From Ferrovibrio terrae (GTDB lineage: Bacteria; Pseudomonadota; Alphaproteobacteria; Ferrovibrionales; Ferrovibrionaceae): DNA of 64,000 nt. Location: positions 1,214,001 to 1,278,000 of the forward strand of contig NZ_CP041636.1 of the NCBI RefSeq assembly GCF_007197755.1. Direction: 5' to 3'. The notes below the pieces were generated by a model. That model ran no database searches, was not told the origin of the DNA, and was given only the letters and a program-made list of their open reading frames with translations. Both the position numbers and the translations under genes were made by a program. This document shows, piece by piece, positions 12,980 through 37,360 of the stretch; position 1 is the stretch's first letter, and every line of letters begins with the position of its first letter.

Positions 12980-13732
12980 TCAGGCTGCCGCTTCATCCTT
13001 CTCGGGCAGTGAGGCCACGGCCGCCGCCGCCTCTGCCTCGCACTGCGCGCGCCGGATGGCCTCTTCCTCGCGCCAAGCCTTCATCAGCGCGGCGCGGCGC
13101 TTCGGATAACGCTGCGGGATCGGCGTCAGCGTCACGATGCGGTCGGTGCGGAAATGCCGGAAGGCCTGGCGCAGCTCGCACCATGCCACCACCATGCGCA
13201 CGCTCTCGAAGAAGGCCAGCGCGAATGGCCAGACGACACGCGTGCTGTCGCGCTCGTTCTCGTCGCGATAGGCCATCTGCATCTTGTGTTCGCTGCGGAT
13301 CAGCTGGCGGATGGTGGCGAGTTCGGCATCGCCCGCCGCAATCACCGGCGCGCCGGCGATGAACAGGCTTTCGCTGTCGAGTGCATCGCGCAGGTCCACC
13401 GGCAGCACCGCGCCGATCCGCGCGATGGCATTGCGTGCCGCAGCGCCCAGCCGCGCATCGGCGCGTTCGGCGACCCAGCGCGAGCCGAGCAGCAGGGCTT
13501 CGAGCTCTTCTTCCGAGAACATCAGCGGCGGCAGCATGAAGCCCGGCCGCAGCACATAGCCCACGCCGGGCTCGCCATCGATGCTGGCGCCCTGCGCCTG
13601 CAGGCTGGCGATGTCGCGGTAGAGCGTGCGTAAGGAGATGCCGAGTTCGTTGGCGAGGTTCTGGCCGCTGACCGGCTGGCGGTGGCGGCGCAGGCACTGG
13701 ATCAGGGCAAGCAGGCGTTCGGCGCGGGACAT
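12980..13732 (-). CDS. YafY-type HTH and WYL-domain transcriptional regulator
   Basis: The 250-residue protein begins SRAERLLALIQCLRRHRQPVSGQNLANELGISLRTLYRDIASLQAQG, a DeoR/HTH_11 winged helix. A WYL domain (about residues 130-210, VVWPFALAFFESVRMVVAWCELRQAFRHFR) would bind a ligand or nucleic acid. The tail is Ala/Glu rich. It probably controls the downstream creatininase/SnoaL genes or itself. CTGYCAG heptamers lie 50 bp and more upstream, beside a phased TTCG array, and are candidate binding sites. Confidence 0.88.
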   Translation of the reverse strand: MSRAERLLALIQCLRRHRQPVSGQNLANELGISLRTLYRDIASLQAQGASIDGEPGVGYVLRPGFMLPPLMFSEEELEALLLGSRWVAERADARLGAAARNAIARIGAVLPVDLRDALDSESLFIAGAPVIAAGDAELATIRQLIRSEHKMQMAYRDENERDSTRVVWPFALAFFESVRMVVAWCELRQAFRHFRTDRIVTLTPIPQRYPKRRAALMKAWREEEAIRRAQCEAEAAAAVASLPEKDEAAA

Positions 13733-13782
13733 TGTCTTTCACCCGTCTGGGGAGGCCCCGGTGGGGGCGAATGAACCACAGT

Positions 13783-13992
13783 CTGCCAGATTATACTGCC
13801 AGTTCCTGTCAGGATGGTTGGAATTCCCGGAGGATCGGTTCGGCTTCGCAGGTGTTCGCGGCGCTTCGCGCGTGTTCGTGGGTGTTCGCAGCGGTTCGTT
13901 TTGCTTCGTACGGGTTCGCTGGCGTTCGTAGCGGTTCGTGAGCGTTCGTGGCGGTTCGCCAATAACAGAGCCTGGCTGCCATATTCTGTCAG
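13783..13992. promoter_or_regulatory. CTGYCAG heptamer repeats flanking the TTCG array
   Basis: CTGCCAG occurs at 13783-13789 and 13796-13802, CTGTCAG at 13806-13812 and 13986-13992, and CTGCCA at 13976-13981. The unit CTGCCA-N4-CTGTCAGG at 13796-13813 is repeated at 13976-13993 with 15 of 18 bases equal. It therefore brackets the TTCG array like direct repeats. Position in front of the WYL regulator suggests operator sites, but this is inference. Confidence 0.4.
13841..13960. repeat. Helically phased array of twelve 10-bp units with invariant TTCG
   Basis: From 13841 to 13960 every consecutive 10-bp block has TTCG at its positions 5-8, twelve times without slippage. The base before TTCG is G nine times and C three times, while the other positions vary. 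The period equals about one DNA turn, so every TTCG faces the same side of the helix. The array is non-coding: no ribosome-binding site, and both strands give only low-complexity Arg/Thr/Glu frames. It lies between the WYL regulator start and the rpsD promoter. Confidence 0.85.
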
Positions 13993-14114
13993 GCATACCC
14001 GCCGGGACCGTCCCGGCACCCGGCGGATTATAGAACATTATGTGAACATTTCCAAGGGCGGATCTTGCCGGCCAGGGCCCGGAAGCGGGACGGGAAACCG
14101 GATGGCATCCGCGC

Positions 14115-14142
14115 TTGACGGGGGGTCGGTTCTCCCTATGAT
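14115..14142 (+). promoter_or_regulatory. Probable rpsD promoter
   Basis: TTGACG (14115-14120), a 16-bp spacer and TATGAT (14137-14142) form a good sigma-70-type promoter about 108 bp before the rpsD start. Transcription would begin near 14149. Confidence 0.6.
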
Positions 14143-14153
14143 GCGCCCGCCCT

Positions 14154-14172
14154 CTCCGGTTCCTCACCGGAG
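14154..14172 (+). promoter_or_regulatory. Leader hairpin at the 5' end of the rpsD mRNA
   Basis: CTCCGG and CCGGAG pair around a 7-nt loop at the very start of the predicted rpsD transcript. S4 represses its own mRNA in other bacteria, so the leader could be a regulatory target. That link is inference. Confidence 0.35.
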
Positions 14173-14250
14173 GGATCGGCATTCCTTGCATGGACCGGGT
14201 CGTCGTGGCTGCCGTCCGACCATGCGCCGAAATTCAGGACTACAGACAGA

Positions 14251-14865
14251 ATGAGCAAGCGTCAGGAATCCAAGTACAAGATTAATCGCCGCCTCGGCGA
14301 AAATCTCTGGGGTCGCGCCAAGAGCCCGATCAACAAGCGCGAATATCCGCCGGGCCAGCATGGCCAGAAGCGCAAGAAGCCGACCGACTACGGCACGCAG
14401 CTGATGGCGAAGCAGCGCCTGAAGGGCTACTACGGCAACATCACCGAGAAGCAGTTCCGCCGCGTCTATGCCGAAGCCAACCGCCGTCGCGGTGATACGT
14501 CGGAAAACCTGATCGGCCTGCTGGAGCGCCGCCTCGACGCCGTCGTCTACCGCATGAAGGTGGTGCCGACCGTGTTCGCCGCCCGCCAGTTCGTCAACCA
14601 TGGCCACATCCTGGTCAATGGCAAGCGCGTCACCATCGCCAGCTACCAGGTGAAGATCGGCGACGTGATCGAAGTGCGGAGCGCCGCCAAGGACTTCACC
14701 TTCGTGCTCGAATCCGTGAAGTCGAGCGAGCGTGAAGTGCCGGACTACATCGAGTTCGAAGAGAACAAGCTGCGTGGCACCTTCAAGCGCGTGCCGCTGC
14801 TCGCTGACGTTCCCTACCCGGTGAAGATGGAACCGAACATGGTCGTCGAGTATTACTCGCGCTAA
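14251..14865 (+). CDS. rpsD: 30S ribosomal protein S4
   Basis: The 204-residue S4 starts [26 protein letters not shown] and includes the alphaproteobacterial [19 protein letters not shown] loop. The S4 RNA-binding domain is at about residues 93-155 ([34 protein letters not shown]). It nucleates 16S rRNA assembly and helps decoding fidelity. Here it is monocistronic, with its own promoter, leader hairpin and a strong terminator, rather than in the alpha operon with rpsM-rpsK-rpoA. That placement is usual for Alphaproteobacteria. Confidence 0.98.
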
Positions 14866-37263: not shown

Positions 37264-37294
37264 GGACCCGGTCGCCTCGGAACGGCGAGGAATA

Positions 37295-37329
37295 TATCAA
37301 TGTTATTGATATTATCAATATAGTTGATA
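37295..37329. promoter_or_regulatory. Two copies of a 17-bp palindromic operator (TATCAAT-N3-ATTGATA)
   Basis: TATCAATGTTATTGATA (37295-37311) is perfect, and TATCAATATAGTTGATA (37313-37329) has one mismatch. They lie 32-66 bp upstream of the hydrolase start in an AT-rich promoter island. The same site occurs upstream of the MarR gene at 38214. Confidence 0.75.
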
Positions 37330-37360
37330 TATCGCCGCCGCCGCGGGCTGGTTCTGGCCA

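Follow-up and report, generated by a model that had tools for sequence, protein, structure and literature searches.

What is the run of evenly spaced TTCG motifs that lies between rpsD and a gene for an HTH_11+WYL regulator? We analyzed the 64-kb stretch of DNA that contains it (the window) along with the rest of the genome and its relatives. Twelve TTCG motifs start at 13845, 13855 and so on to 13955, in exact 10-bp register, as the original prediction had described, and the neighbors are the regulator and the ribosomal protein S4 that it had named. By chance, just 0.01 runs of three TTCG motifs at this step are expected per 64 kb (from 100 dinucleotide shuffles; the largest shuffle count was 1), versus 10 overlapping matches found, all within the array. 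An extra TTCG, at 13839, falls outside this register. The array does appear to be non-coding, and the 18-bp imperfect direct repeats that were said to bracket it are present; we saw these by eye, and they are missing from the automated repeat listing. The repeats of a CRISPR array are about 20-50 nt long and are separated by unique spacers. Here the units are 10 nt and spacers are absent, which agrees with the earlier statement that this is not a CRISPR. Comparing 13500-14400 to Rfam gave nothing at E ≤ 1. There are no inverted repeats in 13500-14300, so at this locus the terminal inverted repeats of a MITE or an insertion element are absent. We also note two other repeats in the window: a 366-bp tandem repeat at 329-1379 (2.9 copies, 81% alike), and an imperfect 18-bp AT-rich tandem repeat, TATCAATATAATTGATAT, at 37291-37330, in a genome that is GC-rich.

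From the sequence, we propose that the array is probably the transcribed body of a small non-coding transcription unit under LexA (SOS) control, one of more than 20 in the chromosome (with a rough probability of 60%). The main feature, which was absent from the original prediction, is a LexA-box promoter on the CGAA strand that is directed into the array (Table 1). This predicted sigma-70-type promoter has the form TTGGAA-17-TATAAT, and its spacer is filled by an exact LexA-type box. The array region has 3 promoter-like sites, versus 0.1 expected. The box is the sole exact copy of GTTC-N7-GTTC in the window, but 1.2 copies are expected by chance, so it is not significant alone. According to excerpts of two papers, GTTCN7GTTC is the published LexA site of Alphaproteobacteria and of Caulobacter (PMC3091678 and PMC12700426). 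In the window genome, an exact GAAC-N7-GAAC precedes the start of lexA itself by about 100 bp, and recA has one with a single mismatch. The recA-alaS interval of another genome (G008) has neither an array (by eye) nor a box.

Table 1. Features of the array locus, in window coordinates.
Feature	Position	Strand	Remark
HTH_11+WYL regulator gene	12980..13732	-	first gene behind the array
18-bp imperfect direct repeat, far-side copy	13796..13813	.	read by eye
Array	13845..13958	-	twelve cores at a 10-bp step; CGAA on the minus (presumed RNA) strand, TTCG on the plus strand
Presumed 5' leader	13959..14020	-	placed from the -10 hexamer; start probably near 14020
18-bp imperfect direct repeat, promoter-side copy	13976..13993	.	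read by eye
Predicted -10 hexamer TATAAT	14027..14032	-	promoter prediction
Exact LexA-type box GTTCACATAATGTTC	14033..14047	-	within the 17-nt promoter spacer; matches GTTC-N7-GTTC
Predicted -35 hexamer TTGGAA	14050..14055	-	promoter prediction
rpsD (ribosomal protein S4)	14251..14865	+	divergent from the array unit

Similar arrays are found across the window genome (G000; one contig of 4,264,634 bases), which has 161 (91 + 70) matches to four units of TTCG-N6; the reversed control has 0. There are at least 21 arrays, on both strands, with 7-15 cores each. Among nine other congeners, four genomes have 32-55 four-unit matches, two have 1 each, and three have none. Six of 386 genomes from the class (completeness of at least 80) have a match: two Ferrovibrio with many and four others with one each. 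Short phased runs of some core are also found elsewhere, as the reversed control gave 5 and 4 matches in two unrelated genomes. Scanning 400 kb of the window genome by lag gave 3 arrays at lag 10, one at lag 13, and none at lags 7, 8, 11, 14, 16, 17, or 19; lags divisible by three were common, as coding DNA would give. In 800 kb of G003, lag 10 gave 2 arrays (one a real AATAAG array), which is not above the other lags (0-3). In G010, which is from another genus, 5 of the 6 sampled contigs had a lag-10 array; these contigs were chosen for their known arrays. Similar arrays scattered at random as simple-sequence noise would have counted against the original prediction; a lag-10 scan of 77 WYL loci from other genera (511 kb) found none. 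Plasmids gave no match to the array patterns. In viral contigs, two array patterns match 84 and 62 stretches, and the best 18 of 227 matches are near-identical simple repeats without a LexA box.

Several repeats of other kinds were seen at related places. In G014, from another genus, the recA-alaS interval contains an 11-bp GCCGATCCGGC array (L208); in the window genome, a CGAA array lies in that interval. In G006, short 15-nt repeats, GGGCCGGTCACCTGT, lie upstream of rpsD at the place of the window genome's array (L074), and a CRISPR-like array lies downstream of recA (L202; repeat of about 37 nt, GCTGCGGTTTGCGGCC..., with spacers of about 30 nt). The AAGC arrays of G010 at L180, L186, L189 and on contig C22 are of near-constant length, have units that match position by position, and start and finish with AAGCCTAAAT.

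The LexA box is associated with the arrays as a group, and most loci have a promoter-like element that carries the box and is directed into the array. We searched the CGAA strand for GTTC-N7-GTTC or GAAC-N7-GAAC with at most one mismatch, and 18 of the 21 arrays in the window genome had such a dyad within 200 bp upstream, versus 2 of 21 downstream (shuffles: mean 2.6, maximum 6). Exact boxes were upstream of 8 arrays and downstream of 0. The gap matters as well: a gap of 7 gives 18 arrays, and eleven other gaps (2-13) give 1-8. Members of a LexA regulon should carry the clade's box in their promoters, and this is what we found, exactly at the window array and with at most one mismatch for 18 of 21 arrays. 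The three arrays with no box within 200 bp are L010, L012, and L027; L012 sits within a predicted ORF of 262 amino acids. Across five species and 61 arrays, which include sister loci and so are not independent, the box was upstream of 50 and downstream of 6 (22 versus 0 for exact boxes). In G001 alone, 7 of 12 arrays had a box; the GACCTGA repeats there push it further off. The distance from CTTG(A/C) to the box is 16-19 nt in 24 of 34 cases, and the leader ahead of the array is 14-237 nt where a box was found (22-153 nt in the window genome). Some loci carry the box in the GAAC orientation, so we did not take direction from the box. Most of the AAGC arrays of G010 lack the box, so the link to LexA may be a trait of Ferrovibrio.

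The association also holds in the other search direction. A pattern that is blind to the arrays (CTTG-N9..16-GTTC-NNNWWWN-GTTC) has 35 exact sites in six Ferrovibrio genomes and 0 in the reversed control. Among the 30 sites that we fetched, 16 have an array at lag 10, 11, 20, or 21 within 320 nt and 5 more have at least three ATAAG, for a total of 21 of 30; in random windows, these rates are 0.5% and 0.1%, respectively. (The five unfetched sites were left out of the count; three of them fall in array loci that were already in our set.) The other 9 of 30 did not qualify as arrays, and they include sites at a BacA/UppP gene (G003), a FitA-like antitoxin, and an IS1595 transposase. The antitoxin gene (L451 in G008) lies about 200 nt behind its SOS-type promoter, and the IS1595-type transposase gene (L460 in G005) is directly behind its own. 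In sister genomes, a very similar promoter is followed by repeats, ahead of a gene that we took by eye to be mnmA. We also applied the pattern to 18 more genomes (four array-poor Ferrovibrio, eight from the family, and six from the class), which gave 13 sites, versus 4 in the reversed control, so some of the 13 are due to chance. One precedes uvrA, and another precedes an ORF of 118 residues that matches the C-terminal end of an error-prone polymerase model. None of the 13 sites has an array, versus 21 of 30 in the six Ferrovibrio genomes, so the coupling to arrays belongs to the array-bearing Ferrovibrio clade.

Could the arrays instead encode repetitive peptides? Frames on the CGAA strand are mostly free of stops (17 of the 21 arrays in the window genome are open in all three frames), some arrays are preceded by a Shine-Dalgarno-like AAGGAG, and two arrays are in an open frame with folP (L011) and cmk (L019). 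However, T is rare at the variable positions of the presumed RNA strand (4-6%, versus 19-23% in the flanks), and T-poverty by itself opens frames. Also, the AATAAG and GACCTGA arrays contain stops, and the start codon is not conserved. We give peptides almost no weight. We also note that the TTGGC arrays are not T-poor, that there is no consistent terminator behind the arrays, and that Rfam searches of 14 of the 20 fetched loci gave no match other than tRNAs.

Another alternative is that the gene behind the array is expressed less, or differently, when SOS transcription passes through the array, which would serve as a sense leader or as antisense. The neighbors are often housekeeping genes (those that we could name include folP, clpB, cmk, purB, trxB, rplM, alaS, ppa, and ndk), and the next gene is co-directional at 14 of the 19 classified loci (13 proteins and one tRNA). 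But it is convergent at the other 5, and two loci (L014 and L015) are unclassified, so there is no single arrangement; and the 10-nt step is left unexplained. We consider such damage-induced leaders to be unlikely.

We discarded several other ideas about what the arrays have in common. Shuffling the letters at variable positions hinted at RNA structure in G000, but shuffling the order of the units gave a mean z of 0.01. CGAAC contains the LexA half-site GAAC, and G follows CGAA in 18-31% of units in G000, G001, G002, and G005, so the arrays might have been decoys; but G follows CGAA in 0 of 19 units in G008, and the other cores do not contain GAAC. One G003 array has almost no C, which does not suit a Rho-utilization site, and an array of pause sites suits CGAA only. 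The GC skew was too weak to consider a replication-strand bias.

How are the arrays maintained? Conservation in sister species was proposed as a check on the original prediction, and the array locus passes it: for 18 of the 21 loci, at least one sister species has an array locus with matching flanking DNA, and the phase is kept. (The shared segments are 66-93% identical, mostly 75-91%. As we compared only fetched sister arrays, 18 is a lower bound.) The content is not kept. The best ungapped identity of orthologous versus non-orthologous arrays is 0.717 versus 0.710 for G001 (8 and 202 pairs; one pair has 0.89), 0.691 versus 0.695 for G002 (14 and 280 pairs), and 0.676 versus 0.677 for G005 (8 and 223 pairs); arrays inside the window genome have an identity of 0.758 to each other (210 pairs). 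Arrays under 60 nt were excluded. On average, an array resembles its orthologue no more than it resembles unrelated arrays: the address and the step persist and the content is rewritten. Each species has its own vocabulary of units. In the window genome, neighboring units agree at 0.371 of variable positions and units two apart agree at 0.511, and 0 of 2000 permutations reach this alternation; in G001, G002, and G005, it is not significant, as the observed value is attained by 493, 103, and 184 of 2000 permutations, respectively. Pairs of arrays that share a run of at least 24 nt are near the unit-shuffle null in the window genome (17 versus 11.3) and above it in G005 (14 versus 2.1).

The core changes too. 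CGAA, AATAAG, TTGGC, and GACCTGA replace each other between species and loci, even at one locus, at a constant step of 10-10.5 nt. AAGC or AATAAG cores are found in G010 and G003 and also in G000, G001, and G002; TTGGC and GGATCGAAC cores are found in G005 and G008; and G000 has an AAACAGG array near 288,880. The GACCTGA... arrays have a 21-bp step (10 + 11), with 42 matches in G001, a few of which are chance matches elsewhere. At the cmk locus, the core is CGAA in G000, TTGGC in G005, and GGATCGAAC in G008 (cmk was identified by eye in the latter two).

These results bear on the original reading of the array as a multivalent DNA platform for a sequence-specific protein, or as an analogue of iteron or DnaA clusters. 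CGAA is the core in five species and the step is about one helical turn, as such a platform might have. However, other cores occupy the same step, the same promoters, and the same loci, and because the core differs between species even at cmk, neither the platform nor the iteron/DnaA analogue is supported. The conserved unit of iteron, DnaA-box, or ParR-parC arrays is not seen here. The idea that all the sites lie on one face of the DNA is only approximately correct: the helix has about 10.5 bp per turn, so twelve units at exactly 10 bp fall out of phase with it by nearly half a turn and do not all face the same way. Nor is predicted curvature shared, as it is above 95% of shuffles in 1 of 20 arrays here, though it is in 7 of 12 in G002 and 6 of 10 in G005. 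A sequence-specific platform now seems very improbable.

The strongest rival to a LexA-controlled unit is neutral or selfish turnover, in which minisatellites expand by tandem duplication at a 10-nt step and are copied among the leaders behind SOS promoters, with no role in the cell. This would fit with the complete turnover of content between orthologues, with its sharing within a species, and with the switching of cores at one locus. On the other hand, addresses are kept between species, and the alternation of units in the window genome also counts against it. Also, the 21 arrays have 237 intact cores and 8 broken ones while their variable positions agree at only 46-48%, although this invariance is partly ascertained, as the CGAA core was our search key (the lag scans and the reverse search are free of this bias). 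Overall, we think that neutral or selfish turnover is rather unlikely.

If the array is a LexA-controlled unit, then LexA would repress its promoter, DNA damage would release it, and RNA polymerase would read through the array to give an untranslated, U-poor RNA. Least certain is how the array might act. Only the step (about 10 nt, or one helical turn) is constant, so we suspect many equal, sequence-tolerant contacts about 10 nt or bp apart, on either the damage-induced RNA or the DNA itself, rather than recognition of one motif. A broader and quite tentative idea is that in part of Ferrovibrio, most exact LexA-type promoters have been turned into drivers of non-coding 10-nt arrays, which keep their one-turn step and their address while their content is rewritten throughout the genome in concert. 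The arrays would then be a damage-linked class that is coded by period and not by sequence, with its own process of copying or conversion. If this is true, then one bacterial group has many SOS promoters that drive arrays of a non-coding kind and not repair genes, and selection sees the spacing of the arrays and not their sequence. It would raise the questions of what reads a 10-nt step without a motif and why it does so after DNA damage. It would also provide a bacterial system in which dispersed repeats evolve in concert, at more than 20 loci and with several sister species available for comparison.

The arrays of Ferrovibrio are probably an undescribed class of non-coding element, since the spacing of the repeats persists while their sequence changes between species. 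The original prediction knew of no named element with this structure, and we found none of this build in the open-access literature that we searched. Cyanobacterial STRR heptamers and REP/BIME elements are dispersed intergenic repeats of unclear role, but their units are built differently, and we know of no link between them and LexA. CsrB-type sponge RNAs carry many copies of a short, conserved motif in one RNA. The arrays also have many repeats of a short motif in one (presumed) RNA, but their core changes. ParR/parC-type centromere arrays and iterons have units of 10-11 bp, as here, but they lie beside the gene for their own protein and the unit is kept, whereas the Ferrovibrio arrays are dispersed (more than 20), have no partner gene, and switch cores. 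Porphyromonas gingivalis has a minisatellite within a MITE, which, as described in an excerpt of PMC4596501, is likewise a dispersed element that holds tandem repeats; the Ferrovibrio element lacks terminal inverted repeats (at the window locus) and is tied to LexA boxes. The closest match is to the LexA/SOS promoters of Alphaproteobacteria, which, in the excerpted text of PMC3091678 and PMC12700426, have the same box and spacing (GTTCN7GTTC), here within a sigma-70-type promoter. The known targets of those promoters are genes, but the exact sites in Ferrovibrio mostly lead into non-coding arrays (21 of 30).
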